In this document: piece after piece, positions 1 to 34,087 of the stretch
How the letters are laid out: each line of letters starts with the position of its first letter
Position numbering within the stretch: the first letter of the stretch is position 1
Assembly: GCA_903858635.1 (NCBI GenBank)
Contig: CAIOJO010000462.1
Coordinates: 1 to 39,722 of the forward strand
Length of the DNA: 39,722 bases
From: an uncultured Telmatospirillum sp.
Lineage (GTDB): Bacteria > Pseudomonadota > Alphaproteobacteria > Rhodospirillales > Magnetospirillaceae
Direction: 5' to 3'
Position numbers and translations under genes: made by a program
Notes under the pieces: generated by a model
Seen by the model: the letters and a program-made list of their open reading frames with translations, nothing else
What the model was told of the DNA's origin: nothing
The model's database searches: none

Positions 1-20
1 CACGGAGGCCGGCGCTACTG
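1..20. repeat. Edge fragment of the dispersed palindromic repeat family (copy R1)
   Basis: These bases match 17 of 20 positions of the end of the repeat inside hdrA at 3490-3509, sharing CACGGAGGCCGG and the ACT near the end. The element continues off the left edge and overlaps the 3' part of hdrC. Confidence 0.55.
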
Positions 21-517
21 CTCTGCCGGCGCACCACCTCGGGCAGGAGCTTGATCTTGCCCTTGCGGATCATCTCCAGGCCCATCCGCAGGTCCTTCAA
101 CGGGTGGCCGCTGCGCAGGTTCATCTCGGCCATCAGCCCCAGCTCGTAGGTGCGGCCCAGCCGATGGACGTTGCGCAGGAAGATCTCGGTGAACAAGGCC
201 ACTTCGGGAACCTTGGGCGCAATGCCGCGGGCCCGTGATTCGGCTGCCAGGCAATCCATCACCCGGGCCACGTCGATGCCGTTCGGGCAGCGCGTCGTAC
301 AGGTCGCGCAGCCGACGCAGAGCCACGGCGTCTTGGCCTCGAGGGCAAGCTGGTCGAGGCCGAGTTGGGCGGCCCGCAGCACCTGGTTCGGCGTGAGATC
401 GAAGTGACTGGCCAGCGGGCAGCCGGAGCTGCATTTGACGCATTGGTAACAGGAGAAGACGTTCTCGCCCGTATCGCTCTGGATCAGTTCGGCCAGGGTC
501 ACTCCGGCGGCGGGCAT
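1..517 (-). CDS. hdrC: HdrC-like iron-sulfur subunit of the methylene-H4folate reductase/Hdr complex (3' end off window)
   Basis: The first 172 residues are visible and the C-terminus lies beyond the left edge. Two ferredoxin-type clusters are plain: C23-x2-C26-x2-C29-x3-C33P and C67-x2-C70-x2-C73-x3-C77P, the HdrC pattern for two [4Fe-4S] clusters. In the known Moorella MetFV-HdrABC-MvhD complex HdrC passes electrons between HdrA and HdrB, and that role is inferred here. The ATG shares its A with the TGA of metF, so the two are translationally coupled. HdrB is not in the window and would be expected just to the left. The last visible residues (QSSSAGLR) lie in a piece of the dispersed palindromic repeat, so the natural C-terminus may have been altered. 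An HdrC/GlpC-like subunit of another oxidoreductase is possible, but the neighbours make this assignment firm. Confidence 0.87.
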   Translation of the reverse strand, partial: MPAAGVTLAELIQSDTGENVFSCYQCVKCSSGCPLASHFDLTPNQVLRAAQLGLDQLALEAKTPWLCVGCATCTTRCPNGIDVARVMDCLAAESRARGIAPKVPEVALFTEIFLRNVHRLGRTYELGLMAEMNLRSGHPLKDLRMGLEMIRKGKIKLLPEVVRRQSSSAGLR

Positions 518-1512
518 CAGGCGCTTTCCGATACGACGGCCGGCGTTTCGAAGGTCGGCCGGGGCAGGAGTCCCGCTCGCTCGGTGATGACGGAAACCGC
601 CTCTTCCCATTCGATGGCCATCAGATGGATGCCGGCCACGCCTTCGATCTCCCGCATCTGCGCGATGGTCTCGACACAGATGCGGATGCCCTCTTCCTTA
701 TAGGCGGCGGCGCGCGCCTTCTTGTCCGCGATGCCTTGTCCGGCCGCTTCCATGCGTTCGACGATGGCGTCGGGCACGTCCATGCCGGGAACCTGGTCGC
801 GCATGTAGCGGGCCGCCGCCGGCGACTTCAATGGCCCGACGCCGGCCAGGATGCGCAGTTGCCGATGCACGCCCAGTTCGACCACCTTGGTCATGAACTG
901 GCGGAACCGCGGCACATTGAACACCAGCTGGGTCTGAATGAAGTCGGCCCCGGCTTTCGCCTTCTTGGCCAGGCGGTAGGGCCGCCAATCGAAGGGATCG
1001 CCAAACGGATTCTCGGCCGCCCCGACGAAGAAGCGGGGGCTTTGTCCTTTGATTTCCTCGCCGCATTGGAAGCGGTTGTGGTCGCGCAGGCCCACCACCA
1101 TCTGCACCAGCTGCAGCGAATCCATGTCGTGGACATTCTTGGCCTGGGGGTGATTGCCGAAGGTCTGGTGGTCACCGGACAGGCACAGGATATTGCGCAT
1201 CCCCAGGGCATAGGCGCCCAGCAGGTCGGACTGCATGGCCAGCCGATTGCGGTCGCGACAGGTCATCTGGATCACCGGCTCCAGCCCTTCCTGCCAGGCC
1301 AGTACGCCAGCGGCGATCGACGACATGCGGACGATGGCGGTCTGGTTGTCGGTGATGTTCACCGCGTCGGCGCAGCCCCGCAGCAGCCTGGCTTTATGGC
1401 GCACCGCCTCGGCATCGGCGTTCTTCGGGGGGCCCAGTTCGGTCGTCACGGCGAAATGGCCGGCTTTCAGGACCTTTTGCAGATTGGACAGGGCGCCGTC
1501 GCTGTCGTTCAT
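517..1512 (-). CDS. metF: Methylenetetrahydrofolate reductase, MetF subunit
   Basis: This 331-residue protein is a TIM-barrel MetF. It interconverts 5,10-methylene-H4folate and 5-methyl-H4folate using FAD. Visible family motifs are TTELGPPK near the N-terminus (E25 is the likely catalytic acid), TCRDRNRLAMQSDLLGA in the middle, and GADFIQTQLVF. It lacks the C-terminal regulatory domain of eukaryotic MTHFR, as expected for bacterial MetF. It overlaps metV by 4 bases upstream (ATGA) and hdrC by 1 base downstream. The metV, mvhD and hdrA neighbours match the multi-subunit reductase of acetogens, where MetF takes electrons through MetV and Hdr proteins instead of directly from NADH. That electron route is inference. 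A second MetF-type enzyme is encoded at 7863-9176. Confidence 0.93.
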   Translation of the reverse strand: MNDSDGALSNLQKVLKAGHFAVTTELGPPKNADAEAVRHKARLLRGCADAVNITDNQTAIVRMSSIAAGVLAWQEGLEPVIQMTCRDRNRLAMQSDLLGAYALGMRNILCLSGDHQTFGNHPQAKNVHDMDSLQLVQMVVGLRDHNRFQCGEEIKGQSPRFFVGAAENPFGDPFDWRPYRLAKKAKAGADFIQTQLVFNVPRFRQFMTKVVELGVHRQLRILAGVGPLKSPAAARYMRDQVPGMDVPDAIVERMEAAGQGIADKKARAAAYKEEGIRICVETIAQMREIEGVAGIHLMAIEWEEAVSVITERAGLLPRPTFETPAVVSESA

Positions 1513-2207
1513 TCCTTGATGTCCGGTTGCGGCAGTTTCAGATCGGCCCGCACCACCTTGCGCGGACCGCCGTCACGGCTGCTGCGCCAATCCTTGGCCG
1601 GGGTGATCTCCATGATCAGATGCAGGCGGTCCTGGGCGGCGAGCTTCTGGTAGATCAGCTGCCAGGCGCAGTCCGGCGCCGAGTCGCCGCAGCCGACCTC
1701 GCATTTGCCCTGGGACGAGCCGCCGCAGGGGCCGTTCAGCAGTTGCTTCGAACAGCGCGCGATGGGGCAGATGCCGCCCGTCAGGCCGAGCAGACAATTG
1801 CCGCAGGCGGCGCAGCGTTCGACCCATTCGCCGTGTTCGGCCGGCATCCCCATGAACTTGGTGTTGAGGCCGGGCACCACCACCGCATCGGGGTAACGTT
1901 CGGCCAAGGCCTGCACACCGATGCCGCAGCCGATGGACAGCACCACATCGGCCTTCTCCACCGGGCCGCGGATGGCGTCCAGATATTCCCATTCGCACTG
2001 CCGCTGTACCGTCACCTCGGTCACCGCCGCCGGCTGGCCGTCCATTTGCGCGGCCATGCGCAGCAGCGAGCCGAGGACTCCGGCCTCCTTGGCGCCACCG
2101 GCGAAGCAGACGGTGACGCAGGTGCCGCAGCCGACCACCAGCACCTGCTTGGCATCGCCCACCAACTGCCGGATCTCGTCCAGGGCTTTCTGTTCGGCGA
2201 CGATCAT
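1509..2207 (-). CDS. metV: MetV, cysteine-rich partner subunit of methylenetetrahydrofolate reductase
   Basis: This 232-residue protein has the MetV layout. The N-terminal half begins with C27-x2-C30-x3-C34. The C-terminal half carries the MTHFR-associated cysteine array C132-x2-C135-x2-C138, then C147, C152, C161 (in NGPCGG), C169, C173 and C180. In Moorella and Acetobacterium MetV joins MetF and passes electrons to its flavin. The abundant cysteines fit an Fe-S and/or zinc role, but metal content cannot be read from sequence. The ATG has an AGGAG nine bases upstream, and the stop overlaps the metF start by 4 bases. A 139-base spacer separates it from mvhD, the only sizeable gap in this operon. 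The same cysteine module recurs fused to MetF at 7863-9176. Confidence 0.88.
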   Translation of the reverse strand: MIVAEQKALDEIRQLVGDAKQVLVVGCGTCVTVCFAGGAKEAGVLGSLLRMAAQMDGQPAAVTEVTVQRQCEWEYLDAIRGPVEKADVVLSIGCGIGVQALAERYPDAVVVPGLNTKFMGMPAEHGEWVERCAACGNCLLGLTGGICPIARCSKQLLNGPCGGSSQGKCEVGCGDSAPDCAWQLIYQKLAAQDRLHLIMEITPAKDWRSSRDGGPRKVVRADLKLPQPDIKE

Positions 2208-2346
2208 CGGGCGGATCTCCTGCCATCGGTCCCGGTTTCACTGTGGCGGGCCGTGTGCCTTGGTCCGTGTAATCCGTGTCTGAATGGCACAGCGTCGGCC
2301 ACAGAAAAATCCTGCCCAATGGCGTTCGAACGATGGAGTTCGGGCA
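2208..2346. other. 139-base spacer between mvhD and metV
   Basis: No credible gene is seen here. The stretch contains TCCGTGTAATCCGTGTCTGA (2264-2283), in which CCGTGT is repeated ten bases apart. I recall similar strings as recurrent intergenic sequence in unrelated bacteria. The SD for metV (AGGAG) lies at its left end. Every other junction in this operon is overlapping or under about 15 bases, so this gap is an outlier. It may hold an internal promoter, a processing site or an inserted relic. Confidence 0.5.
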
Positions 2347-2811
2347 TCACGGCGTTCCCTCGTTTGCTTTCGGCCGCCGCAACGGGCTCGGGCCCAGTTT
2401 CCGCACCGTTGCGTCCATCTCGCGGACCGCCTCGGCCCAGCGATTGCCCATCGCCGACGACATATTGAACATGCGCACCCGTTCCGGTTCGAGGCCGATG
2501 CTCGCCAGCAGAGTCTGGCCGTGAACGACGCGTCGCTTGGCGTTGAGATTGCCCTGCTGGTAATGGCAGTCGCCCTCCATGCAGCCGGCGACCATCACCC
2601 CGTCGGCGCCCTTCTCGAAGGCGTCGAGGATCAGCTGCAGGTCGAGCTTGCCGGTGCAGGGCAGCTTCACCACCTTGACGCTGTCGGGATACTGGAAGCG
2701 CAGCGAACCGGCCATGTCGGCGGCGGCGTAAGCACAGTAGTGGCAACAGAAGGCCACGATATTGATGTCGTCCGGCGCAGGCCCCTCGGTCTTCATCTCA
2801 TCGGCAAGCAT
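2347..2811 (-). CDS. mvhD: MvhD-like [2Fe-2S] electron-transfer subunit
   Basis: This 154-residue protein matches MvhD (FlpD), the small [2Fe-2S] subunit that links HdrA to an electron donor or acceptor. The family cysteines are present: FC22-C23-x2-C26, C52 in the LPCTGKLD segment, and C77/C82 in GCMEGDCHYQ followed by GN. In methanogens MvhD bridges hydrogenase and heterodisulfide reductase, and in the Moorella complex it is a subunit of the methylene-H4folate reductase. The start at 2811 is chosen because GAAGGA lies 7 bases upstream. A second in-frame ATG at 2796 lacks such a site. The gene overlaps the end of hdrA by 14 bases, indicating coupled translation. Confidence 0.9.
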   Translation of the reverse strand: MLADEMKTEGPAPDDINIVAFCCHYCAYAAADMAGSLRFQYPDSVKVVKLPCTGKLDLQLILDAFEKGADGVMVAGCMEGDCHYQQGNLNAKRRVVHGQTLLASIGLEPERVRMFNMSSAMGNRWAEAVREMDATVRKLGPSPLRRPKANEGTP

Positions 2812-5800
2812 GGGCGCTTCCTTCGAACAAGGCGTCGACCTTGGCCATGACCTGGGCGTCGCGGTAATGCATGACACTGATGGCCTTGGCCGGGCATTCC
2901 GCGGCGCAGGACCCGCAGCCCTGGCAAATCGCCGGCTCGATAAAGGCTGCTCCGCCCAGACCGCCGATCCCCGCGATCTCGAAGCTGATCTTCGGCACAT
3001 GGTAGGGACAGATGCGGACGCAGGTCAGGCAGCCGGTGCAATTCTCGGCCACCACCGTGGCCACCGCACCCCCCGCCATCAGCGATTCCTGGGCCAGGAT
3101 GTTGGCGGCGCGCGAGGCGGCCGCCCGCGCCTGGACGATGGTTTCGTCGAGGAATTTGGGGTAATGCGCCGCGCCGGCGACGAACAGGCCCTCCGAGGCG
3201 AAATCCACCGGACGCAGCTTGACATGCGCTTCCAGGAACCACCCGTCCGCGTCGAGCGGGACCTTCAATTTGGTGCCGAGTTCGCGCGCCCCGTCGGCCG
3301 GCACCATCGGCGTGCTGAGCACCAGCAGGTCGGCGGAAAGCTCGAGGTCGAGCCCGAGGATAGGGTCATGGACGCGGACGAGAACTTTCTCGTCATTCCC
3401 ACTTTGCTTTTCAGTGGGACCGGCGTCCCTGCCGGTCTGCGCCGCGGAGCGGCGGAAATGCTGGGCTTCCGGCTCCGCCGGATCACCGGCACGGAGGCCG
3501 GTGCCACTATTTCCTTGCAGCGCCATCACCGGCCGGTGCGCGTCGTCGAAGCGGATGAACCGCACTCCTTGCCGCCGCGCCTCGGCGTAGATGCGCTCCT
3601 TGAAGCCGTAGGTGCGGATGTCCTTGTACAGCACGGTGACCGTTGCCCGCGGGTTGGCGGCCTTGAGCTGCAGGGCGTTCTTCAGGGCGGTGGTGCAGCA
3701 CAGGCGGCCGCAATAGCGTTCGGCCGGCCCGACGCATTGCAGCATGACCACCGACTGCGGCGGCCGGTCGCCACTGGCCAAGGCGGCCTCGAATTGCTGC
3801 TGCGTCAGGATGCGCCGGTCGGTTCCCAACCCATGGTCGTCACCACGGTATTCCTTGCCGCCGGTGGCCACGATGGTCACCCCATGCTGGATCATGGCGC
3901 CGTCGGTCAGGCGGCTGGTGAAGTTGCCGAGAAAGCCGGTGGTCTCCACCAGCTCGGTCTGCAAATGGACGGCGATGCGGTGATTGGCGCCAACGCGGGC
4001 GACAATTTCTGCCAGGAAGACGCCCGGATCGCCGGGGCCCTCGAAGGTGAACAGGTGGCGCAGATTGCCGCCCAGCCGGTCGTCCCGCTCCACCAGATGA
4101 ACCGGGAATCCCTGGTCGGCCAGGGTCAGCGCCGCCGTCATTCCGGCCGGGCCGCCACCGAGCACCAGGGCCGAGTGCTCGATGGGAACCGGCACCGTGT
4201 CGAGGGCTTCCAGGCCATCGACCCGGGCCACCGACATCCGCACCAATTCCTTCGCCTTGCGCGTCGCCGCGGCCCGATCGCCGGAATGCACCCAGGAACA
4301 CTGGTTGCGGATATTGGCCATCTCGAACAGATAGGGATTGAGACCGGCCTGCCGGATGGCATCCTGGAACAACGGCTCGTGGGTGCGTGGGGTGCAGGCG
4401 GCGATCACCGCGCGATTGAGGCCGAGCTCGCCCACCCGCTGGCCGATCGCCGCGATGGAATCCTGCGAACAGGCATAGAGCACCGTCTCGGCATGGGTGA
4501 CGTTGGGCAGGCCGCGCGCCGCGGCCGCCACCGCGGCCACGTCGACGAAGCCGGCAATGTTGGTGCCGCAGTGACAGACGAACACGCCGACCTGGGGCAC
4601 TTCGCCGGCCACGTCGCGCTCGGCCGGGTAGATGCGTTCGCGGGCCAGCTCGCCGCGCGCGGCGGCCAGCATGGCGGCCGCCTGCCCGGCGGCGGCCGAA
4701 GCGTCGACCACCGTTTCGGGGATGTCCTTCGGCTGGCGGAACGGGCCGGCGGCGTAGATGCCGGGCCGCGAGGTCTGCAGCGGATCGGACGGGGCGGTCA
4801 GGCAGAAGCCGTTGGCGTCGAGATCGACCCCGAGCTGGCCCGCCAACTGCCGGATCTCCGGCGCGATTTCCATGCCGACCGAGAGGACGACAAGGTCGAA
4901 CCCCTCCTCGGTGACGGCACCCTGTTCCGACAGATGCCGCAGCACCAGGTCGTGGTTGTTGGCGGTTTCGGCGATGGCCGAGATGCGGCAGCGGTGATAC
5001 TGCACGCCGTATTTCTCGCGGGCGCGCCGGTAGTATTCCTCGTAATTCTTGCTGAAGGCGCGCATGTCCATCATGAACACGTGGACGTCGATGTCCGGTT
5101 CGTGTTCCTTGGCCATGATCGCTTCTTTGGCGGCGTACATGCAGCACACCGCCGAGCAGTAGTCATGGCTCTGATCGCGCGAGCCGATGCATTGCAGGAA
5201 GGCGATCTTCTTTGCCTTGATGCCATCGGATGGCCGTCTGACATGGCCGCCGGTGGGACCGGAGGCCGATAGCAGCCGCTCGAACTGCAGCGAGGTGACG
5301 ACATTGGGGAAGCGGCCGAAGCCGAATTCCTGCGACAGCCGGGCATTGTAGGGCTGGTAGCCGGGGGCCAGGATGACGGCGCCGACCTCGACCGTCTCGA
5401 TCCGTTCGACCTCGTCGTGGTTGATCGCCTTGGCTCCGCAGGCGCTGACGCAGGCCAGGCATTCGGAGCAAATGCCGCATTCCAGGCAACGGGTCGCTTC
5501 GGCCCGCGCTTCCGCCTCGGAATAGCCGAGCTCGACCTCGACGAAATCGCCGCTGCGCGATGCGACCGCCATCTCCGGCATGGGCACCCGCGCGGTCGGC
5601 CGGATCCGGCCATCCCGCAGCTTGGCGTCGAGTTCGGCCTGGCTCAGGGCGGCGACCGGCAAGGCCGGCTTGGCGTCCGCCGCGGCCACTCCGTCGCGCA
5701 GGTAGCGGTGGATGGCTTGGGCGCTCTTGCGCCCGCTGGCGATGGCCTCGATGGCGAAGGCGGTGCCGCTGGTGCAGTCGCCGGCGGCGAACACGCCGGC

Positions 5801-7429
5801 ATGGCCGGTGGCCATGCTGTCGCCATCGATCTCGACGGTCTTCTGTTTGCTGACGCGGACGGCAGAATCGGCCGGAACGATGCCGAGGCCGACCCGTTGA
5901 CCGATCGAAAAGATCAGGACGTCGCCGGGGATGACCAAGTTCCGGTCGGAGATGACGGTGGCGGTGTTGCCGTCGAAACGCACCCGCTCGCATTCCAGTC
6001 CGGCGACGCCCCCCGCGCCGTCGTCGAGGACGCGCAGGAAGTTGAGGCCGATCTCGATCTCGATGCCTTCGTCGCGGGCCGCCTGCTGCTCGTGCAGGCT
6101 GGCCGGCATGCGGCCGGAGCTGCCGCGTACCGCCATGCGGACCTGGCGCGCGCCCAACCTGACGGCGGTCCGCGCCACGTCCACCGCCACATCGCCGCCG
6201 CCGACCACGATGACATCCTTGCCGGCGATGCGGGCCTTGGGATCGACCTTCGCGGCGCCTTCCTGATCACCGTCGGCCCGTTTCATCTCGGCCAAGCGCA
6301 CGTCGCGCAGGAAGGCCGTGTTGATCAGCACGCCCTCCAGATCATTGCCCGGAATCGGCAGCCGGATACCTTCCTGGGCGCCGACGGCGATCAGCACCGC
6401 CTTGAAACCCTGGTCGAACAAGTCGTCCAGCCGTTCGATCCGGGTGTTGAGGCGAAGCTCGACCCCCTGATCGAGGATGTCCTGGATCTCGCGGTCGATC
6501 ACCGCGGCCGGCAGCCGGTGCGCCGGAACACCGAAGCGAAGCATGCCGCCGGGCGCCGGCAGTGCCTCGAATACCGTGACGGCGTAGCCGCCGCGCACCA
6601 GGTCTTGCGCCGCGGTCAGGCCGCAGGGGCCGGCGCCGATGATGGCGACGCGCTCGTCGTAACGGCGTTCCACAGGCTGCGGCTTGACCCGCGGTTTGGC
6701 GTGTTCCTGGTCGACGACGAAGCGCTTCAGGCCGCGGATATTGACCGGCTCGTCGACCTTGCCGCGGCTGCAGGCGGCCTCGCAGCGATGGTCGCAAATG
6801 CGGCCGCAGATCGCCGGGAACGGATTGTCGTCGAGAATGCTGCGCAGGGCATCCTCGGTGCGACCGTCCTTGATCAGGGTGATGTAACCTTGGGCCCGTT
6901 GGCCGGCCGGGCAGGCGTCCCGGCAGGGGGCGACCCCTTTCTTCTCGATCGCGTAGGCGGTGGGAATGGCCTGCGGGTAGAGCCGGAAGGCGGCGCGGCG
7001 CTGAGCCAGGCCTTCGTTGAAATCGTCGCTGCGGCTACTCGGGCAGACCTTGGCGCAATCGCCGCAGCCGACGCATTTGGCCGGGTCGATGTAACGCGGC
7101 TTCCGCTTCAGGCGCGCGGTGAAATTGCCGGCCTTGCCGTCGACCGCCAGGAGCTCGGTATTGGTCAGGATCTCGATGTTGAGGTGGCGTCCGGTCTCCA
7201 CCAGCTTCGGCGAGATGGCGCACATGGCGCAGTCATTGGTCGGAAAGGTCTTGTCGAGCTGCGCCATATGGCCGCCGATGGCCGACTTGGCCTCGACCAG
7301 ATAGACCTTGAAGCCCTGTTCGGCCAGATCGAGGCTGGCCTGCATCCCGGCGATGCCGCCGCCGACCACCATGACGGCGCCCGTTGGATGGCACCCGGTC
7401 CGGTTCTCGGCGGAAAGCTCCATGTCCAT
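2798..7429 (-). CDS. hdrA: Giant HdrA: duplicated HdrA flavoprotein with an inserted GltD/NfnB-like module
   Basis: This 1543-residue protein is far longer than ordinary HdrA (about 650). Module order is clear. Residues 17-130 are an HdrA N-terminal FAD Rossmann (VVGGGIAGMQASLDLAE), the NDCAMCAISPK loop and a ferredoxin motif (C119-C129). Residues about 165-580 are a GltD/NfnB-type unit with its own FAD (AIIGAGPCGLTAAQDL) and NAD(P)H (VVGGGDVAVDVART) folds. Then come a Cys-rich segment (C648-C664) and the rest of the first HdrA (about 680-940). Residues 945-1445 are a second HdrA (VCHCGTN, then LGGGPAGMTAA). Two [4Fe-4S] motifs end the protein (C1464-C1474 and C1502-C1512). The flavin and cluster content suggests pyridine-nucleotide-linked, perhaps bifurcating, electron transfer. 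That is inference from HdrA and Nfn enzymes. Residues about 1307-1344 are encoded by a palindromic repeat. Folb ends 12 bases upstream. Confidence 0.92.
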   Translation of the reverse strand: MDMELSAENRTGCHPTGAVMVVGGGIAGMQASLDLAEQGFKVYLVEAKSAIGGHMAQLDKTFPTNDCAMCAISPKLVETGRHLNIEILTNTELLAVDGKAGNFTARLKRKPRYIDPAKCVGCGDCAKVCPSSRSDDFNEGLAQRRAAFRLYPQAIPTAYAIEKKGVAPCRDACPAGQRAQGYITLIKDGRTEDALRSILDDNPFPAICGRICDHRCEAACSRGKVDEPVNIRGLKRFVVDQEHAKPRVKPQPVERRYDERVAIIGAGPCGLTAAQDLVRGGYAVTVFEALPAPGGMLRFGVPAHRLPAAVIDREIQDILDQGVELRLNTRIERLDDLFDQGFKAVLIAVGAQEGIRLPIPGNDLEGVLINTAFLRDVRLAEMKRADGDQEGAAKVDPKARIAGKDVIVVGGGDVAVDVARTAVRLGARQVRMAVRGSSGRMPASLHEQQAARDEGIEIEIGLNFLRVLDDGAGGVAGLECERVRFDGNTATVISDRNLVIPGDVLIFSIGQRVGLGIVPADSAVRVSKQKTVEIDGDSMATGHAGVFAAGDCTSGTAFAIEAIASGRKSAQAIHRYLRDGVAAADAKPALPVAALSQAELDAKLRDGRIRPTARVPMPEMAVASRSGDFVEVELGYSEAEARAEATRCLECGICSECLACVSACGAKAINHDEVERIETVEVGAVILAPGYQPYNARLSQEFGFGRFPNVVTSLQFERLLSASGPTGGHVRRPSDGIKAKKIAFLQCIGSRDQSHDYCSAVCCMYAAKEAIMAKEHEPDIDVHVFMMDMRAFSKNYEEYYRRAREKYGVQYHRCRISAIAETANNHDLVLRHLSEQGAVTEEGFDLVVLSVGMEIAPEIRQLAGQLGVDLDANGFCLTAPSDPLQTSRPGIYAAGPFRQPKDIPETVVDASAAAGQAAAMLAAARGELARERIYPAERDVAGEVPQVGVFVCHCGTNIAGFVDVAAVAAAARGLPNVTHAETVLYACSQDSIAAIGQRVGELGLNRAVIAACTPRTHEPLFQDAIRQAGLNPYLFEMANIRNQCSWVHSGDRAAATRKAKELVRMSVARVDGLEALDTVPVPIEHSALVLGGGPAGMTAALTLADQGFPVHLVERDDRLGGNLRHLFTFEGPGDPGVFLAEIVARVGANHRIAVHLQTELVETTGFLGNFTSRLTDGAMIQHGVTIVATGGKEYRGDDHGLGTDRRILTQQQFEAALASGDRPPQSVVMLQCVGPAERYCGRLCCTTALKNALQLKAANPRATVTVLYKDIRTYGFKERIYAEARRQGVRFIRFDDAHRPVMALQGNSGTGLRAGDPAEPEAQHFRRSAAQTGRDAGPTEKQSGNDEKVLVRVHDPILGLDLELSADLLVLSTPMVPADGARELGTKLKVPLDADGWFLEAHVKLRPVDFASEGLFVAGAAHYPKFLDETIVQARAAASRAANILAQESLMAGGAVATVVAENCTGCLTCVRICPYHVPKISFEIAGIGGLGGAAFIEPAICQGCGSCAAECPAKAISVMHYRDAQVMAKVDALFEGSAHACR
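3398..3510. repeat. In-frame palindromic repeat inside hdrA (copy R2)
   Basis: The segment begins with a small hairpin (CCCACT at 3398-3403, AGTGGG at 3413-3418). It continues with paired GC-rich arms (CCGGCGTCCCTGCCGG, then CCGCGGAGCGG) and ends GGAGGCCGGTGCCACT. The same modules in the same order form the intergenic copy at 31255-31322. Translated, it gives the low-complexity stretch around residues 1307-1344 of HdrA, between a Rossmann strand and a conserved HDPILGLDLEL segment, without breaking the frame. Confidence 0.72.
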
Positions 7430-7441
7430 CCGGGGATCCGC

Positions 7442-7873: not shown

Positions 7874-9176
7874 CGGTGCCTCCAATCGGATTGCCCAGCT
7901 CCCCAACGATGTCGGGCAGCACCGAATGATCGGCGCCGAACAGCATCAGATGGACGCCGCGCACCCCCGGCATGCGGGAGACTGCCGCGACCGTCTCCTT
8001 GGCCAGGCGGCAGCCCTCCTCGCGCAGATCCTTGGCGCTTTCCAGGCGTCGGCGCACTTCCGGCGGATAGTCGACCCCGGGAACGCGCGGAATCATCTCC
8101 ATCGCCCCCTTCGAGATGACCACCGGAACGCCGGCCAGCAGGAACAGTTCGCGATCCAGCCCCTCGTCGCAGAACCGCCGCATGAATTCTTCGAAGGCGG
8201 GCAGGTTGAACACCAGCTGCGTCTGGATGAAATCAGCCCCGGCCGCGGCCTTCTGCTTCAAGCGGCGGATCGGCACATCCATCGGCGTGGTGAACGGGTT
8301 GATGGCGACGCCGATGAACGGTCGCGGGGCCTCTTTCATCGCCTCGCCGGTAAAATGGATGACACCCTTCTCGCGCAGGTGCCGGGCCTCGTACACCATC
8401 AAGGACGAGTCCATGTCGAAGACCTGCTTGATGCGCGGATTTCCGGCGTAGGAATCGCCGGTCAGGCACAGCACGTTGTGGATGCCGTTGGCGTCGTTGG
8501 CGATCAGTTCGGAAATGAACGAGGTCTTGGTGACATCCCGACAGGTCAATTGGCAGACCGGCTCCATCCCGAAGCGCAGCAATTCGATGCAGGAGCGGGC
8601 GGCCGGCAGCGAGGGTTTGCCGTTCAGATAGGCGGTAGCGTTGACCGCATCGAAATGGCCCTGGATGGCGCGGATTTCCTTGTCCAGCCGGGCGAAGTCG
8701 GCGTTGCGCGGCGAGCGGATCTCGCAGGTCTTGACGAAACGCCCGGACTTCAACGCCGCTTCCAGCCGCGACTTGGTAGCCAGCGGTTGGGCCACCCGAT
8801 GCGGCGGCAGGTCAAGATAGGCCAGCGGCGTCGTCCCCGCCTTGTCCAAACCGGTGATCCAGTTAGCGTAGGACGAGGTGAAGAACAGCGCGGCGTCGGG
8901 CGACGGATTGAGCTTGGGGGTGTCGGTGCCGCCATGCGCCGTGTGCTCGTAGATGCGGACCCAGACGCATTGGCGATCGGGATAAACCTCGCACATGCCG
9001 CCGATGGTCCCGCCGCAGGGCCCGTTGCGCAGTCCCTTGGGGCAACTCATCGGGCAGATCAGGGCGGTCTGCGACAGCATGCACTGGCCGCAGGAGCGGC
9101 AGTCGAACGCCGTTCCCTTGACGAACGCCTCGGCGCGCGCCGCCATCCGCCGCAGAACGCCCTTTATGCTGCGCAT
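7863..9176 (-). CDS. MetV-MetF fusion: second methylenetetrahydrofolate reductase
   Basis: This 437-residue protein joins a cysteine-rich MetV-like head (C26, C29, C32, C41, C45, C54 in NGPCGG, C62, C70) to a MetF barrel from about residue 145. The barrel shows KTCEIRSPRN, TCRDVTKTSFISELIANDA, LCLTGDSYAG and GADFIQTQLVFNLPAF. It should interconvert methylene- and methyl-H4folate. The start at 9176 is supported by GGAG nine bases upstream. The long open frame upstream of it is an overlap with the amidohydrolase gene, whose stop lies 13 bases inside this gene. It is clearly diverged from the separate MetF at 517-1512, so the operon encodes two types of reductase. Electron partner unknown. It may share HdrA or use another donor. 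Confidence 0.88.
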   Translation of the reverse strand: MRSIKGVLRRMAARAEAFVKGTAFDCRSCGQCMLSQTALICPMSCPKGLRNGPCGGTIGGMCEVYPDRQCVWVRIYEHTAHGGTDTPKLNPSPDAALFFTSSYANWITGLDKAGTTPLAYLDLPPHRVAQPLATKSRLEAALKSGRFVKTCEIRSPRNADFARLDKEIRAIQGHFDAVNATAYLNGKPSLPAARSCIELLRFGMEPVCQLTCRDVTKTSFISELIANDANGIHNVLCLTGDSYAGNPRIKQVFDMDSSLMVYEARHLREKGVIHFTGEAMKEAPRPFIGVAINPFTTPMDVPIRRLKQKAAAGADFIQTQLVFNLPAFEEFMRRFCDEGLDRELFLLAGVPVVISKGAMEMIPRVPGVDYPPEVRRRLESAKDLREEGCRLAKETVAAVSRMPGVRGVHLMLFGADHSVLPDIVGELGNPIGGTDAR

Positions 9177-10372
9177 AACGGGGCACTCCAAACGCCGCGT
9201 GGTGTCCGCAGCGCAGCGGGTTCGACGAAGGGCGAGGCATCGAGAAGCACGGCGTCGAACGGCCCCCCCTTGGCAAGCACCGCCTGCGGCAAGCCGAAAT
9301 GCCGGCGGGCGGCCGAAGTGGCGGCGATCAGGGTGGCCTCGAGGGACAGGCCGGCCTCGACATAACGGTCGATCTCGTCGAACACGGCCGCCCCGTGGAC
9401 CACGCCCATGCTGCCGGCATCGGTTCCCAGCAGCAGCCGGACGCCCAGCTCCCTGGCAATCACCAGATGCTCGGCATGGTCGTCGAGGATGCGGCGCAAA
9501 TTGCCCACCGTTTGGGCCGACCAACCCACCGCCTCGGGGTGGGCCCATTGGAAATGCACCGGGCAGAAGGTCGGCGTCCAGGCGATGTCCTTGGCGGCCA
9601 TGACCTCAAGGATTTCGCGGCTCATAAAGAAGCCGTGCTCGATCGAGCCGACCCCCGCCTCGACCGCCACGGCCAGGCCCTTGGCCCCGCTGCAATGGGC
9701 GAAGGTGGAGCGGTCGCACTCCTTGGCCACTTCCACCACCAGCCGGGCCTCGGCCGCGGTGAACTGCGGCTCGTCGGTCACCGCGCCGGCCTCGAAATCG
9801 ATGATCCCGGTCAGGATCAGCTTGATCTCGTCATTGATCGTCGACATCTCGGGGATCGAACGGATGATGTCGTTTTCGTCCACCACGTCGGAGGCCATGA
9901 AGGCGCCGTAGCGCTTGGGCCGCTTGACGCCCAGGCCGGCCGAGCGAATCATCGGCAGGGATCCGGGCACCTGCTGGGCTTCCCGGCGGATCAGGTTATT
10001 GATGCCGTGGCGGTCGCCGGCGTCGCGCACCACGGTGACCCCGGCGGCCAAGGCCTGCCGGGCGCTGCGCCGGGCCGCCTCGGCCAGCTGCTCGACCGGT
10101 TGCTTCATATGCTCGGAGCGCAGCTTGGCGTCGGTGGGTGCGCCGTCGAGGAACAGATGCACATGGGCATCCACCAGCCCGGGAATCAGATAGCCGCCGC
10201 GCTCCACCGGCAGGCCGCGGGCGGCCAGCGCCGCAGCGTGGTCGCCCTGGGAGATGTCGGCGACGACCCCGTTTTGCACCAGGAACGTGGTCGGCCCGTC
10301 GGGCTGGCGGCTTTCGCCATCGAACCAGCCGTCCACGACCAAGGCGAATTGCACGGAATCGGCGCCGACCAT
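9164..10372 (-). CDS. Amidohydrolase-superfamily metal hydrolase, substrate unknown
   Basis: This 402-residue TIM-barrel amidohydrolase has a full binuclear metal-site set: DAH70VH72, K194 in EIKLILTG (a candidate carboxylated lysine), H226 in FAHCSGA, H246 in SIEHGF and D318 in LLGTDAGS. An N-terminal beta domain (residues about 8-62) and its C-terminal return are also present, as in imidazolonepropionase and prolidase-like members. No signal peptide is seen, so it is probably cytoplasmic. It sits between the corrinoid methyltransferase genes and the reductase genes, overlapping its downstream neighbour by 13 bases and starting 9 bases after the methyltransferase stop. This makes a role in handling the methylated substrate or a demethylated product (for example opening a cyclic amide or removing an acyl group) a reasonable guess. 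The reaction is not known. Confidence 0.8.
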   Translation of the reverse strand: MVGADSVQFALVVDGWFDGESRQPDGPTTFLVQNGVVADISQGDHAAALAARGLPVERGGYLIPGLVDAHVHLFLDGAPTDAKLRSEHMKQPVEQLAEAARRSARQALAAGVTVVRDAGDRHGINNLIRREAQQVPGSLPMIRSAGLGVKRPKRYGAFMASDVVDENDIIRSIPEMSTINDEIKLILTGIIDFEAGAVTDEPQFTAAEARLVVEVAKECDRSTFAHCSGAKGLAVAVEAGVGSIEHGFFMSREILEVMAAKDIAWTPTFCPVHFQWAHPEAVGWSAQTVGNLRRILDDHAEHLVIARELGVRLLLGTDAGSMGVVHGAAVFDEIDRYVEAGLSLEATLIAATSAARRHFGLPQAVLAKGGPFDAVLLDASPFVEPAALRTPRGVWSAPLCAA

Positions 10373-10381
10373 GGTTTGCTC

Positions 10382-11269
10382 CTAGGCTCGGTAGAACTTG
10401 CGGACCACGCGGATGGCGTTGGTGCCGGTCTGTTCGAGGAAGGCCCGATAGGTGCTCAGCACGTAATGATCGTCGGGCAGGGGATGGTAGCCGCGCCACG
10501 GCGTGCCCAGCAGGGTGTCGAAACCATGCGGCACGGTCAGGGTGAGGAAGGCGCATTCCAGCGCATGCTTGAGGTCGGATCCGTCGACCGCCTTGGGCGG
10601 CAGTTGCTGGCCGATGTTCGACAAGCCGCCCATCATATGCAGGCCCTTGAGGTCGGGGTCGCTGCCGATCCGTTTGATGGCGTCGATGGTGCCGCGGCTG
10701 AGGCCCTCGGAATCGGCGATGATGGCGCTGACCGACATGTCGATGAAAATGTCGTCGAGGGGCATGCCGTGCTCGTTCTTCAGCCGCAGCGCCGCCCGCT
10801 TGGCGGTCGAGGCCACTTCGTCGGCGGTCCGATTGCTCTTGGCGGTGCCGTCCTCGACCCGTTCCGAGGCCATCATGATGACCTTGAACTTGAACGACTT
10901 GTAGAGGTCCATCAGGTCCCAACGATGTTCGGTGATGGAATTGACGATCGGCAGCTTGCCGTCGGCGCGCGACGGATCATAGGCCTTCAGGCAGATTTCC
11001 TGGACTTCCAGGCTCGGGAAGTCGAAGGACAGCGGCACCGTGACCACCGCCTGGATGGCGCGGATGACTTCGGCCATGAATTGCGGCTCGGTGCGGGCCC
11101 GCGACCCGATATTGACGTTGAGATAGGCGGCGCCGGCTTCCGCCTGCCGGACCGCCAAGGCCTGGATGCCCGGAATATCCGAGTTGTCGAACAGCGCCTT
11201 GGTGCTCTTGAAACCGGGGTTGATCCGCTCGCCGATAATATTGACCTTGAAGCCGTTGGGTGTGGTCAC
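10382..11269 (-). CDS. Methyltetrahydrofolate:corrinoid methyltransferase (DHPS/pterin-binding family)
   Basis: This 295-residue protein is a pterin-binding TIM barrel of the AcsE/MtgA type. It moves a methyl group between a methylcobamide protein and H4folate. Motifs are NIIGERINPG at the N-terminus, YLNVNIGS, SFDFPS, PIVNSIT (the Asn involved in folate binding), DIFIDMSVSAI and MMGGLSNIGQQLP. The start is a GTG at 11269, whose GTGA overlaps the RACo stop, with GAGGA 7 bases upstream. A longer open frame upstream is only a shadow of RACo. It is distinguished from folate-synthesis FolP by the GERIN and GLSN motifs. In the predicted pathway it is the second methyl transfer, delivering methyl-H4folate to the MetF enzymes of the same operon. 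Confidence 0.9.
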   Translation of the reverse strand: MTTPNGFKVNIIGERINPGFKSTKALFDNSDIPGIQALAVRQAEAGAAYLNVNIGSRARTEPQFMAEVIRAIQAVVTVPLSFDFPSLEVQEICLKAYDPSRADGKLPIVNSITEHRWDLMDLYKSFKFKVIMMASERVEDGTAKSNRTADEVASTAKRAALRLKNEHGMPLDDIFIDMSVSAIIADSEGLSRGTIDAIKRIGSDPDLKGLHMMGGLSNIGQQLPPKAVDGSDLKHALECAFLTLTVPHGFDTLLGTPWRGYHPLPDDHYVLSTYRAFLEQTGTNAIRVVRKFYRA

Positions 11270-13068
11270 GACGCTATCCTCGAATGAGACTGAGTGGGGA
11301 AACCGATATTGTTCAGGAAGGCCTTCTGGAACTGGGGAATGGTGCTCAGCTCGACGTAGCGGGCTTCCGCCGCCAGTTCCCGGCCTCGTTGCAGATCGTG
11401 GCGCGAGGCCAGCATGCGGCAGACGCCGAGACCGGCGGCATTGCCCACCTGTTCGAAGCGCTCGCGCGGCAAATCGGGAAACAGGCCGATGGCGATGCCG
11501 CTGGCGACATCGATATAGCTGCCGAAGGCGCCGGCGATGATGAAGCGGTCGATATCCGCTTCCTGCACTCCGGCCTGGCGCAGCAGGAGTTCGGTGCCGG
11601 TGCGGATGGCCGCCTTGGCCAGCTGCACGGCGCGGATGTCCTCCTGGCTGAAATGAACCTCGGGCCCCAGCACGGCGACCCGCTTGCCGTCGACTTGGGC
11701 GACGTCGGGATGGCCGGCCGACAGGCGGCCGCGATCGTCGACGATGCCGGCGCGATGCAGGCTGGCCACCGCGTCCAGCACGCCGGAGCCGCACAGGCCG
11801 ACCGGCGGCAGGCCGCCGATGGTCTTGACGGCGATGCGCCCCTGGACCAGGGACACCCGCTCGATGGCGCCGTCGGCGGCACGCATGCCGCAGGAGATAT
11901 GTCCGCCTTCCAAAGCCGGACCGGATGGGCAGGAGGCCGACAGGATGCGGCCGTCATGGATCACCGAGATCTCGGTGTTGGTGCCGATGTCCATGACCAG
12001 GCTGGTGCCGCTCTGCCACCGGTCCTCGGTGGCCAACAGGGCGGTGACATGGTCGCCACCGACGAAGCCGCCGATATTGGCGGCCAGATGCACCCGGGCG
12101 CCGGGGCAGATATCCAGTCCCAGTTCGGCTGCGGTGATGTCGATGGCGCTCTGCAACGCGGCGACAAAGGGGGCGCGGCCCAGTTGATGGACCGGCAGGC
12201 CGGCCAGCAGGTGATGCATGGCGGTATTGCCGCAAATCACCGCGTCGACGATGTTCGCCTGGTCGGCGCCCACCGCATGGCACAGGTCGTGGGCCAGCCC
12301 ATTGAGGCCGTTCAGCACCGCGGTCCGCAGTTCCGCCGCGCCCTCGGCGCTGCGGCTGGCGTAGTTGATGCGGCTGATCAGATCGGCGCCCCAGCCGACC
12401 TGGGGATTTTCGACGCCGATGCCGGCCAGGCGTTTGCCATCGTCGAGGTCGACCAGGAAGGCCGCCAGATTGGTGGTGCCGAGATCGACGGCCAGGCCGA
12501 GATTGGGGCTTCCCGGCGGGGCGAAGCCGATTACCGTGTCGTCGAGGAAGCGCGCCCGCACCGCCCAGCCGTGCTGGCGCAGGAGGGCCGGAAGCTGGCG
12601 GGCGGCCGACAATTCCACCGCTCCGATCGGCCGTGCCAAGGCTTCGGTGACCCGTTCCAGATCGGCCTTGGGGTCGGCCAGGGTCGCGGCCGCAACCGCG
12701 ACTTCGACGGCGCTCACCCGGGGCGCCGCGGTCAGGCATTGGCCGCCGTCATGGCCAATCTCGGCGCGGGCGACGGGGGCCAGCGAGCGCGGCGCGATCT
12801 CGACCGTGCAGTCGCTCTTCGCCTGAATCCGGCAGGCCCGCTGCCACCTCTTGCGCCAGGACTGACCTTTTCCTTCGAGGTCTTCGACATGGCCTTCGGG
12901 GATGCGCACCATGCAGGAGCCGCAGGTGCCGCGGCCGCCGCAAGCGCCGACGATGCGAACTCCGCTGCGCCGCGCCGCCTGGAAGATGGTTTCGCCGTCG
13001 TGGGCGACCAGGTCGCGCCCCAGATCGGGGAAGTCCAGGCGATGGGTGCGTGGGGGAAGTTTCGACAT
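11266..13068 (-). CDS. RACo-type corrinoid-protein reactivation ATPase with [2Fe-2S] domain
   Basis: This 600-residue protein resembles RACo/RamA-class activators that reduce inactive cob(II)amide to cob(I)amide using ATP. An N-terminal plant-type [2Fe-2S] ferredoxin domain shows C43-x5-C49-x2-C52 and C79. The C-terminal half is the ASKHA-like fold of the DUF4445/RACo family, with LGLAVDLGTTNLAAF, AVICGNTAMHHLLAG, VMDIGTNTEI and FIIAGAFGSYIDV. The start at 13068 has AAGGAG 6 bases upstream. It precedes the methyltransferase with a GTGA overlap and follows the MetH-activation-like gene by 11 bases. Its presence supports the view that the adjacent corrinoid protein is used in catalysis and needs reductive repair. 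Confidence 0.92.
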   Translation of the reverse strand: MSKLPPRTHRLDFPDLGRDLVAHDGETIFQAARRSGVRIVGACGGRGTCGSCMVRIPEGHVEDLEGKGQSWRKRWQRACRIQAKSDCTVEIAPRSLAPVARAEIGHDGGQCLTAAPRVSAVEVAVAAATLADPKADLERVTEALARPIGAVELSAARQLPALLRQHGWAVRARFLDDTVIGFAPPGSPNLGLAVDLGTTNLAAFLVDLDDGKRLAGIGVENPQVGWGADLISRINYASRSAEGAAELRTAVLNGLNGLAHDLCHAVGADQANIVDAVICGNTAMHHLLAGLPVHQLGRAPFVAALQSAIDITAAELGLDICPGARVHLAANIGGFVGGDHVTALLATEDRWQSGTSLVMDIGTNTEISVIHDGRILSASCPSGPALEGGHISCGMRAADGAIERVSLVQGRIAVKTIGGLPPVGLCGSGVLDAVASLHRAGIVDDRGRLSAGHPDVAQVDGKRVAVLGPEVHFSQEDIRAVQLAKAAIRTGTELLLRQAGVQEADIDRFIIAGAFGSYIDVASGIAIGLFPDLPRERFEQVGNAAGLGVCRMLASRHDLQRGRELAAEARYVELSTIPQFQKAFLNNIGFPTQSHSRIAS

Positions 13069-13079
13069 CGCCGGCTCCT

Positions 13080-13757: not shown

Positions 13758-13762
13758 GCCGC

Positions 13763-15031
13763 TCAGCCGGCGTATTTGCGGGCGGCGCCGAACATGGCCC
13801 GCACATTCTCGATCGGCGTCTCATCGGGAATGCCGAAGGCGCAGTCAAGGATCAGCTTGCCGCCCTTGTTCCAGACATTGTCGACCAGATGCTTGACCGC
13901 CGCATCGACCTCCTGCGGCGTGCCGGTGGTCATCATCGACGGCGACAGATTGCCGCGCAGGGCGACCACATCGCCCAGCACCTCGAAGGCCTTGACCATG
14001 TCGGTGCGTTCGAACCAGTAGATGCACTTGCCGGGCGGGATGTCCTTGATGATCTCGAGGCGCTTGGTGCAGTCGGCTTCCCATAACGGCATGGGAATGA
14101 CCCCGGCCTCGATCAGATCGACCAGCATCTGCCGGAAGGGCGGCCACCAGAACTCGCGGAACTGCTTGTCCGACATGAAGGCGTCGGGGGCCCAATGAAT
14201 GGGTATGAACACCACCGGATTGCCCGAGGCGCGGGACGCATTGATGGTCATCTTGGTCAGGAACTGCCGCGCCTTGTCGAGCAGCTGGAGCAGCTTGTCC
14301 TTGTTGCGGAACAAGTCGGTCATCATGCCGCGGGCGCCGCGAAAATAGTCGGCGATGTAGTCGTAGGGCGACACGGCGGTGCTGACATAGGAACCGGGAT
14401 GCCCAAGGGCCGCCATCTTGGCGGTGAAAGCGGCATGGTGGTTGGCCAGACGCTCGGCCTCTTCGCCGGCTTTGACCAGCTTTTCGAACGCTGCCTTGAC
14501 GCTCGGCTTGGCGAAGGCGCGCATGGCGCCGACCAGGCGGAAATAGTGCAAGCCGGGCCACATCGGCAGCTCGTCGATGCCTTCGAAGCAGCCGGCGACA
14601 CGCGGCAGGTATTTCTGCAGATAGAAGCCGGTGGGATCGAACAGGAATTCGTCGTATTCGTCCGCCTTCATGTATTCGCGGTCGAGATACTGATAGGGGT
14701 GGTCTTCGCCGACCCCGTGGCCGGGCCACTGCAGCTGCTTGAAGTCCATGGCCTCCAGCGCATTGCCGGTGGCAATGGCCAGGATGAAGGGCGCATGGAT
14801 ATCGGGCTCGAATTCGAGGACGGCGCGGGTGGCGATCTCGGCCGTCTTCTCGTAGTCGTACATCAACTGGCGGTGCGAGATATTGCCGTATTTGGCCAGC
14901 CAGAAGGTGGCCAGCATGGCCACCGGCATGCGGTCCGGCTGGCGCAATTCGACGCAGTCCATGACGCGCTTCCAGCGGGTGTCATAGGCCGCTTTGGCTT
15001 CGGCTGTCTGCACCGGCGCCTCGGCGGTCAT
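13763..15031 (-). CDS. Uroporphyrinogen-decarboxylase-family substrate:corrinoid methyltransferase
   Basis: This 422-residue protein belongs to the UroD-like methyltransferase group (MtaA, MtbA, MtvB/OdmB and CmuA domains). It transfers methyl groups to or from a cobamide. Visible features are RQPDRMPV near the N-terminus, IPIHWAPD, PMPLWEADC and the C-terminal GKLILDCAFGIPDETP. The His and Cys residues in these segments are candidates for the family's zinc ligands. It is longer than MtaA/MtbA (about 340). The start overlaps the corrinoid gene stop (ATGA). Since methyl-H4folate chemistry is handled by a separate enzyme, this is probably the substrate-specific first methyltransferase, for example an aryl methyl ether O-demethylase like MtvB. 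The substrate is unproven. Confidence 0.84.
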   Translation of the reverse strand: MTAEAPVQTAEAKAAYDTRWKRVMDCVELRQPDRMPVAMLATFWLAKYGNISHRQLMYDYEKTAEIATRAVLEFEPDIHAPFILAIATGNALEAMDFKQLQWPGHGVGEDHPYQYLDREYMKADEYDEFLFDPTGFYLQKYLPRVAGCFEGIDELPMWPGLHYFRLVGAMRAFAKPSVKAAFEKLVKAGEEAERLANHHAAFTAKMAALGHPGSYVSTAVSPYDYIADYFRGARGMMTDLFRNKDKLLQLLDKARQFLTKMTINASRASGNPVVFIPIHWAPDAFMSDKQFREFWWPPFRQMLVDLIEAGVIPMPLWEADCTKRLEIIKDIPPGKCIYWFERTDMVKAFEVLGDVVALRGNLSPSMMTTGTPQEVDAAVKHLVDNVWNKGGKLILDCAFGIPDETPIENVRAMFGAARKYAG

Positions 15032-15690
15032 GCCGCCACTCCCATCCAGGCCTTCGACAGGGCGACCGCTTCCACCGCATTGACGCCGAAAGCGTCTGCT
15101 CCGGTGTAGTTGCGCACTGTCTCATCGATCTGGCCGCCGCCGATCATGATCTTGACCTTGTCGCGCAGTCCGGCCGCGGCGATCGCGTCGATGGTCTCCT
15201 TCATCGAATCGAAGGCCAGGGTGAGGAATCCCGACAGCCCGACCACGTCCGGCTGGAACTTGGCGATTTCCTCGATGAAGGTCTGCACCGGCACGTCGAT
15301 GCCGATGTCCTTGACCTCGAAGCCATTGATGTCGAGCATGAAGGTGACGATGTTCTTGCCGATATCGTGCAGGTCGCCATGCACCGTGCCGATCAGCACC
15401 TTGCCCAGCTTCTTCGGCTCTTCCCCGGGCTTCGACTTGATCAGGGGCTTGGCAATGGCGCCGATGGTCTCCAGCATCTCGCCGGCCAGGACCAGTTCGG
15501 GCAGGAAATATTCCCCCTCCTCGAAGCGCTTGCCGACCAGGTCCATGGCGGTGCGGCACAATTCCAGCACGCGGATGGGATCCTTGTTGTCGACCAGCAG
15601 CATCTTGTTGGCCAGCGGCAAGGCCTCGTCCTCGCGCATCTCGGCCAAACTGTCGACCAACTGCCGTTCTTCGTCGTTCATATCCGTCAT
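15028..15690 (-). CDS. Corrinoid (B12-binding) methyl-carrier protein
   Basis: This 220-residue protein is a MtaC/MtvC-type methyl carrier. Residues about 1-90 form the helical cap domain. Residues about 95-220 form the B12-binding Rossmann fold with the lower ligand motif D106-L-H108-D-I-G111, then GLSGFLTL and IGGG. H108 should coordinate cobalt in the base-off form. The start at 15690 has GGAGG five bases upstream. The longer open frame from 15789 has no such signal. It is the first gene of the operon. The single carrier is presumably methylated by the UroD-family enzyme, demethylated to H4folate by the pterin-binding enzyme, and repaired by RACo. Confidence 0.94.
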   Translation of the reverse strand: MTDMNDEERQLVDSLAEMREDEALPLANKMLLVDNKDPIRVLELCRTAMDLVGKRFEEGEYFLPELVLAGEMLETIGAIAKPLIKSKPGEEPKKLGKVLIGTVHGDLHDIGKNIVTFMLDINGFEVKDIGIDVPVQTFIEEIAKFQPDVVGLSGFLTLAFDSMKETIDAIAAAGLRDKVKIMIGGGQIDETVRNYTGADAFGVNAVEAVALSKAWMGVAA

Positions 15691-34085: not shown

Positions 34086-34087
34086 GG

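Follow-up and report, generated by a model that had tools for sequence, protein, structure and literature searches.

A corrinoid demethylase operon with MetFV-Hdr genes in an alphaproteobacterial draft genome: a candidate pathway for methoxyl oxidation

The 39,722-nucleotide stretch of DNA analysed here (the window) is contig CAIOJO010000462.1 (C462) of a draft genome of an uncultured Telmatospirillum sp. (GCA_903858635.1, referred to as G000; 6.13 Mb in 568 contigs, 96.3% complete, 3.6% contamination). It contains an operon of thirteen minus-strand genes, running from position 15690 to the left window edge at position 1, in which a set of corrinoid demethylase genes is joined to the genes of a Moorella-type MetFV-Hdr complex. 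Each half is known in its own right, as the UroD-type O-demethylase and as MetFV-HdrABC-MvhD; what appears to be new is the joining of Moorella-type methyl oxidation to an O-demethylase in a non-acetogen. We think it reasonably likely that the operon serves the oxygen-independent demethylation of methoxylated aromatic acids, and oxidation of the methyl group, in an alphaproteobacterium that is not an acetogen, and its lifestyle on methoxy groups is probably respiratory rather than acetogenic.

Organization of the operon and identity of the host

The genes are listed in the order of transcription.

15028-15690, minus strand: corrinoid (methyl carrier) protein, 220 residues; Pfam B12-binding and B12-binding_2
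13763-15031, minus strand: UroD-family methyltransferase I, 422 residues, probable aryl-O-CH3 demethylase; URO-D, 86.7 bits
13080-13757, minus strand: stand-alone 225-residue protein with a predicted MetH reactivation-domain fold; AlphaFold predicted local distance difference test (pLDDT) 91.3
11266-13068, minus strand: RACo-type ATP-dependent corrinoid reductive activator with N-terminal 2Fe-2S domain; Fer2, RACo_linker, Raco_middle, RACo_C_ter
10382 to about 11269 (start codon uncertain), minus strand: pterin-binding methyltransferase II (methyl-corrinoid to tetrahydrofolate, H4folate); Pterin_bind
9164-10372, minus strand: amidohydrolase, 402 residues, prolidase/ochratoxinase type; Amidohydro_1
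7863-9176, minus strand: MetV-MetF fusion, a Cys-rich DUF5981 domain followed by methylene-H4folate reductase; PF12225 and PF02219
7442-7873, minus strand: FolB (dihydroneopterin aldolase family); FolB domain, TIGR00525 at 80.6 bits, above cut-off
2798-7429, minus strand: HdrA, 1543 residues, with an inserted GltD-like NAD(P)H/flavin module; Fer4_20 and Pyr_redox_2
2347-2811, minus strand: MvhD/FlpD electron-transfer subunit; PF02662, E 1.8e-49
1509-2207, minus strand: MetV; PF12225, E 3.8e-33
517-1512, minus strand: MetF; PF02219, E 2.8e-39
1-517, minus strand, running off the left end: HdrC part of a probable HdrC-HdrB fusion; frame with CYQCVKCSSGCP and CVGCATCTTRCP

Profile searches place the named families where the original prediction, which had read a one-strand operon of demethylase and MetFV-Hdr genes, had put them; its title and reasoning did not include the MetV-MetF fusion (a second reductase), FolB, the amidohydrolase or the MetH-like protein. 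Spacing between genes ranges from a 14-base-pair (bp) overlap to a 12-bp gap, with the sole exception of 139 bp (2208-2346) between MvhD and MetV, and there is no break where the demethylase part meets the Hdr part, the FolB-HdrA junction being 12 bp.

The alphaproteobacterial host suggested by that prediction is supported by RpoB, which is 85% identical to that of a Rhodospirillaceae metagenome-assembled genome (MAG), 80% to that of Azospirillum TSO22-1, and 74-77% to those of two further alphaproteobacteria, as against 58-62% for the remaining ten genomes compared. For this comparison 24 genomes were searched, with RpoB frames chosen by the presence of the GRHGNKG motif; 16 had a match and 15, G000 included, were compared, G031 being dropped because its RpoB is in pieces.

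The demethylase core and its conservation

The UroD-family methyltransferase I, the corrinoid protein, the pterin-type methyltransferase II and the RACo-type activator together form a complete demethylase gene set. The corrinoid protein scores 152.8 bits against TIGR02370, under the 215.3 cut-off, and the best solved relatives of the pterin enzyme are methyl-H4folate:corrinoid methyltransferases. For the 225-residue protein, Pfam and NCBIfam searches gave no match; its predicted structure retrieves MetH structures with Foldseek (best E 1.3e-10), and a profile match to 1j6r has an E of 0.011. Because this protein is predicted to have the MetH reactivation fold, the operon appears to encode corrinoid activators of both the ATP type (RACo) and the MetH type.

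A second copy of UroD, 76% identical to that in the window, shares a stretch of contig C461 (L009:8691-15322) with genes for MarR and an ATP-binding cassette transporter of the branched-chain type. No corrinoid-protein match was found beside it on C461, which suggests that several substrate-specific methyltransferases use one shared carrier. A plasmid search with UroD returned one distant match, at 22% identity, on a Sporomusa plasmid.

We scanned 84,980 species genomes with both G000 UroD copies, a search that detects only homologues sharing two search peptides, and obtained 138 pattern matches, 78 of them encoding a relative, which correspond to 77 distinct loci in 62 assemblies. Judging by record titles and the genera named in them, we take 14 of these loci to be alphaproteobacterial, 50 betaproteobacterial and three gammaproteobacterial, with nine in unplaced Proteobacteria and one in a Terriglobia MAG; the carriers include Azospirillum TSO22-1, Aromatoleum anaerobium and Thauera phenylacetica. 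Within 8 kilobases (kb) of UroD, and with many loci cut by contig ends, the most frequent core neighbour is the corrinoid protein (63 of the 77 loci), followed by the MetH-like protein (57), RACo (55), the pterin enzyme (52) and the amidohydrolase (45). All five core neighbours occur in 44 loci. In 35 of these they are accompanied by a MetF-like gene, which in many cases resembles MetV-MetF; in seven of the nine loci without one, the corrinoid gene is less than 700 bp from a contig end, so that the upstream side is not visible. The four-part corrinoid demethylase core keeps its order in the relatives, and since neighbours are conserved across the 77 loci, a chance assembly of genes is excluded. 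More usually, the demethylase is accompanied by MetF or MetV-MetF and no Hdr. The Terriglobia locus (L032, JAIQES010000015) has the full demethylase core and a MetF-like gene, reflecting either gene transfer or mis-binning.

The MetFV-Hdr module

All six Moorella-type subunits (metF, metV, mvhD, hdrA, hdrB and hdrC) are encoded together. The hdrB gene expected just left of the window was recovered on C461 (19,102 bp; L009). This contig shares window bases 1-72 apart from a single mismatch at base 6, and its end gene (L009:18096-19100), which continues the HdrC frame, encodes two CCG domains. In four other genomes one reading frame covers both HdrC and HdrB, and here the two parts are probably one fused protein spanning C461 and C462. 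HdrA scores 868 bits against the HdrA2 model, under the 1100 cut-off, and GltD-type families also match; mapped against the Bam-type HdrA of the same genome, it has an insert of 495 residues (approximately 162-656) with matches to NAD(P)H flavoproteins of the GltD type, and the Pyr_redox_2 module within it is a candidate NAD(P)H site.

Among 35 UroD carrier genomes searched (G000 and 34 drawn from the 62 assemblies), many of them MAGs of unknown completeness, only four yielded the long HdrA: G000, G008, G015 and G026. It is present in two of 385 alphaproteobacterial genomes searched, G000 and G159. The order HdrA-MvhD-MetV-MetF-HdrC-HdrB is kept in all five clusters seen. The cluster adjoins the demethylase in G000 and in the betaproteobacterium G026 (L055/L120), where FolD lies between the amidohydrolase and HdrA, and it stands apart from the demethylase in G008 and G015. 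In G159, the single case among 384 other alphaproteobacteria searched, a UroD-corrinoid fusion gene of 665 residues (URO-D just over cut-off) lies approximately 11 kb from HdrA (G159:C1:76298-80809 and L156:11822-13819) and has no real similarity to the window UroD; the neighbourhood also includes a pyrroloquinoline quinone alcohol dehydrogenase and a 2-oxoacid:ferredoxin oxidoreductase.

Because it is found in four of 35 carriers, and alone in two of those four, the Hdr module is best regarded as an optional partner of corrinoid methyl transfer. The same figures could be taken to mean that the two halves of the operon are neighbours without a joint job, with MetV-MetF serving the demethylase and Hdr acting, for example, in redox balancing or methyl-H4folate supply, and the frequency of a MetF or MetV-MetF companion, together with the 31 carriers in which no long HdrA was found, is in keeping with this. 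However, the FolB-HdrA junction is tight, demethylase and HdrA also adjoin in the betaproteobacterium, and in G159 a UroD-corrinoid fusion, albeit a dissimilar one, is not far from HdrA, and we consider separate jobs unlikely. The coupling claimed in the original prediction is seen in one operon here, but the distribution among relatives upholds it only in part.

Direction and the route to formate

We found no match to the acetyl-CoA synthase family CdhC/AcsB (PF03598) in G000, the control being positive in two of 14 genomes, both archaea, and none to formyl-H4folate synthetase (FTHFS, PF01268), for which the control was positive in four of 14. There is one copy of FolD in G000, and the window encodes a formate dehydrogenase.

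31335-34268, minus strand: formate dehydrogenase alpha subunit, NAD-linked type; TIGR01591, 738 bits (cut-off 666)
34088-35773, minus strand: formate dehydrogenase diaphorase subunit (NuoE and NuoF-like); 2Fe-2S_thioredx, Complex1_51K, NADH_4Fe-4S

With FolD and formate dehydrogenase present and acetyl-CoA synthase without a match, oxidation is favoured over acetogenesis, a preference first drawn from the window and now borne out genome-wide. The opposite direction, in which the complex would make methyl-H4folate for acetogenesis or methionine, has in its favour that the same subunits make up the Moorella enzyme, which is described as part of the Wood-Ljungdahl pathway (PMC5861303). But a 96% complete genome with no acetyl-CoA synthase and no FTHFS match speaks against it, as does the operon itself, which supplies methyl-H4folate and so leaves little need to make it; a reductive role seems highly improbable.

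The route from methyl-H4folate to formate that had been anticipated is recovered as far as FolD and a formate dehydrogenase alpha subunit scoring over its cut-off, but the step from formyl-H4folate to formate has no recognised enzyme: besides the missing FTHFS, the best PurU match in G000 scores 108 bits (cut-off 286) in a 220-residue frame and is probably PurN. Of the 35 genomes, 29 have a PurU over cut-off, nine an FTHFS and 32 at least one of the two; G000 and G031 alone lack both, and in G006 PurU is split into two frames (G006:C33:122685-123480), through assembly error or as a pseudogene. FolD (six of the 77 UroD loci) and FdsA-like genes resembling the formate dehydrogenase alpha gene of the window (two of 77, by tblastn) are occasional neighbours; in one relative, L012, FdsB- and FdsA-like genes come next after the MetV-MetF fusion.

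The potential of NAD+ is about -320 mV. That of the methylene/methyl-H4folate couple is near -200 mV (PMC5861303), so that NAD+ alone would be an uphill acceptor for the electrons of methyl-H4folate, and it is for this reason that we propose electron splitting by the Hdr complex. The Moorella MetFV-Hdr complex has itself been proposed to run in reverse in methanol oxidation, with menaquinone-coupled oxidation of methyl-H4folate driving NAD+ reduction (PMC13391211), and the suggested splitting with quinone is carried over from that proposal.

In the pathway we envisage, the UroD enzyme would demethylate Ar-O-CH3 and load the methyl group onto the cob(I)amide of the corrinoid protein, from which the pterin enzyme would pass it to H4folate, with oxidised corrinoid rescued by RACo, possibly aided by the MetH-reactivation-like protein. 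MetF would convert methyl-H4folate to methylene-H4folate, and a complex of HdrA-MvhD-MetV-MetF-HdrCB would split the electrons, part going to NAD(P)+ at the GltD-like module and part to an acceptor of higher potential, for instance quinone; the alternative to such bifurcation would be confurcation, in which reduced ferredoxin takes part. FolD and the neighbouring NAD-linked formate dehydrogenase would carry out the remaining oxidation to CO2. The Hdr complex would then be an added energetic device, the usual reductase in the relatives being MetF or MetV-MetF without Hdr.

Clues to the substrate

VanA is an oxygen-dependent O-demethylase. The 34 carrier genomes have 40 VanA_C genes in all, 12 of which fall within UroD loci, against 0.23 expected from the 0.57% of bases that the loci occupy, and all 12 VanA-like tblastn matches were paired individually with VanA_C positions. 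Over the 77 loci VanA-like genes occur in 17 and VanB-like genes in ten, and Pfam Rieske and VanA_C domains were confirmed in two UroD loci. On C461 there is a cytochrome P450 whose nearest solved relatives are 2fr7 (E 3.3e-156) and CYP199A4 (4dnz, E 1.5e-151), with a ferredoxin reductase alongside; it is an irregular neighbour, with a match in only one of the 77 loci, at 31%. Enzymes of the CYP199A type O-demethylate p-methoxybenzoate, and some also veratrate (PMC11530827). Since VanA is enriched at UroD loci and a CYP199A-type P450 lies on C461, this gene neighbourhood narrows the likely substrate to methoxylated aromatic acids.

Three genes next to the operon may be relevant to its regulation or to transport.

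16265-16816, minus strand: MarR-family regulator, possible operon regulator; MarR_2 (Pfam)
17324-18517, plus strand: periplasmic binding protein, divergent from the operon, possible aromatic-acid binder; Peripla_BP_6
18609-19802, plus strand: major facilitator superfamily transporter; MFS_1

The best solved relatives of the binding protein, 4ey3, 4eyg and 4eyk (E 1.2e-103), are Rhodopseudomonas palustris binders of hydroxybenzoate and vanillate; the binding protein on C461 (L009:14135-15322) has weak solved relatives only and so offers no substrate hint. A chemotaxis receptor with sCache_2 and PilZ domains (19867-21882) adjoins the transporter genes and may sense substrate.

The best solved relative of UroD, in a match spanning nearly its whole length, is CdmB (E 4.6e-41), the sole UroD-type methyltransferase among its four solved matches at E <= 0.1 and a haloalkane enzyme. 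It could be argued from this that UroD is a CdmB-like haloalkane (chloromethane) dehalogenase and that the pathway oxidises the methyl groups of halomethanes. The VanA enrichment, the CYP199A-type P450 and the presumed aromatic-acid binders among the relatives of the binding protein point elsewhere. Moreover, the methoxylated-aromatic demethylases MtvB, OdmB and VdmB are described as near relatives of CdmB, with MtoB nearest of all, and Cdm homologues are reported chiefly from Bacillota and Asgardarchaeota (PMC13222342). Because aromatic O-demethylases too are close to CdmB, the nearness of UroD to it cannot choose the substrate, and taking the evidence together we regard a halomethane substrate as quite unlikely.

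Class II benzoyl-CoA reductases are credited to obligate anaerobes. Contig C454 (L123:3496-16968) of this alphaproteobacterial genome has a class II (tungsten, Bam-type) cluster, in which BamB (versus 4z3w, E 9.2e-229) is accompanied by a Bam-type HdrA, FlpD and NuoEFG-like genes, and which we take as support for ring degradation. Separately, a DmsE-family decaheme cytochrome adjoins an MtrB/PioB outer-membrane protein on C461 (L009:4399-7879), a possible system for extracellular electron transfer.

The amidohydrolase and FolB

The amidohydrolase model (pLDDT 94.6) is closest, by profile and by fold, to prolidase, ochratoxinase and arginine-carboxypeptidase structures, and residues H70, H72, K184, H226, H246 and D318 are invariant in all 36 aligned sequences. 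Since G000 has neither PurU nor FTHFS over cut-off, we considered whether it might substitute for them, and rejected this as a general role, although in G000 itself it may still do so: co-absence gives no support, in that 32 of the 35 genomes have one of those enzymes over cut-off, and its solved relatives are amide hydrolases of the prolidase/ochratoxinase type. FolB was likewise rejected as a conserved part of the pathway, since a search of the 77 relative loci listed no match to it at E 1e-8, and it is probably local to the host lineage.

Weighing the proposed pathway

Several observations count against demethylation and oxidation of methoxylated aromatic acids as the function of the operon. 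The proposed pathway does not account for two methylene-H4folate reductases in one operon, nor for FolB and the amidohydrolase. The nearest solved relative of UroD is a haloalkane enzyme, and CdmB is stated not to demethylate methoxylated aromatics (PMC13222342). The VanA enrichment treats genomes as independent and ignores kinship. G000 lacks FTHFS and a PurU over cut-off, an FdsA-like gene lies in only two of the 77 loci, and the long HdrA is rare among carriers and separated from the demethylase in half of those that have it.

A broader form of the proposal is that anaerobic or facultative members of the Alphaproteobacteria and Betaproteobacteria oxidise methoxy groups by respiration, that a single-chain HdrA containing a GltD/NfnB-like flavin module, with fused HdrCB, MvhD and MetFV, splits electrons between NAD(P)+ and a higher-potential acceptor with no need of acetyl-CoA synthase, and that the amidohydrolase may perform a new folate- or formyl-hydrolysing step. 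We advance this only tentatively and hold it to be doubtful as a whole.

Relationship to known systems

The closest counterpart of the Hdr half is the MetFV-HdrABC-MvhD complex of Moorella thermoacetica (type IV, or 6S, methylene-H4folate reductase), all six subunits of which are encoded here, with MetF, MetV, MvhD and HdrA in the order of the Moorella accessions YP_430048 to 430051 (PMC6085437). Its NADH site is reported to be on HdrA (PMC8515935). Unlike the Moorella system, the operon includes a demethylase, HdrC and HdrB are apparently fused, and the genome has no acetyl-CoA synthase match; neither acetyl-CoA synthase nor FTHFS, the markers we used for Wood-Ljungdahl acetogenesis, was recognised. 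In a 2018 survey, 25 homologues were counted in genomes that encode MetFV, MvhD and HdrABC; every one came from an obligate anaerobe, and the genomes included 12 of Firmicutes and eight of Proteobacteria (PMC6085437). The Bam module of C454 contains relatives of HdrA and FlpD; its HdrA (1023 residues, 44% identical) is without the GltD-like insert and clusters with BamB and NuoEFG-like genes, not with MetFV.

The demethylase half resembles the Mtv (Moorella), Odm/Vdm (Acetobacterium) and Mto (Methermicoccus) systems, which likewise have a UroD methyltransferase I, a separate corrinoid protein, a pterin methyltransferase II and a 2Fe-2S RACo-type activator (PMC8630106); the likeness to MtvB, OdmB, VdmB and MtoB is one of gene set and description, the sequence comparison being with CdmB only. 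It differs from them in belonging to a mostly proteobacterial group and in the adjoining MetH-reactivation-like protein, amidohydrolase and MetF or MetV-MetF gene. The Cdm chloromethane dehalogenase of Acetobacterium dehalogenans provides the best solved match, but the gene neighbourhood points to aromatic acids. The chloromethane methyltransferase CmuA is a UroD-corrinoid fusion that combines this chemistry with methyl-H4folate oxidation, whereas UroD and the corrinoid protein are separate genes here. Other described systems include the estrogen methyltransferase EmtABCD of Denitratisoma, described as related to MtmB (PMC7448270), and the type I mlp clusters, with UroD relatives of coenzyme M methyltransferases (PMC10418091). 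In open-licence PubMed Central literature, covered mainly through titles and abstracts, we found no description of the combined operon, of a GltD-containing HdrA or of the demethylase group of Alpha- and Betaproteobacteria.

Implications

Methoxyl groups are a large share of lignin carbon, and their oxygen-free removal is commonly attributed to acetogens and certain archaea. In one aquifer, anoxic use of veratrate is credited to Acetobacterium (PMC10602745). The operon is a natural case of MetFV-Hdr in a non-acetogen, in which the proposed direction, methyl oxidation, can be investigated in isolation, and because UroD homologues occur in cultured Azospirillum TSO22-1, Aromatoleum anaerobium and Thauera phenylacetica, the question of the pathway is testable in existing cultures. 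If the proposed pathway is correct, growth on methoxy groups would need no acetyl-CoA synthase.

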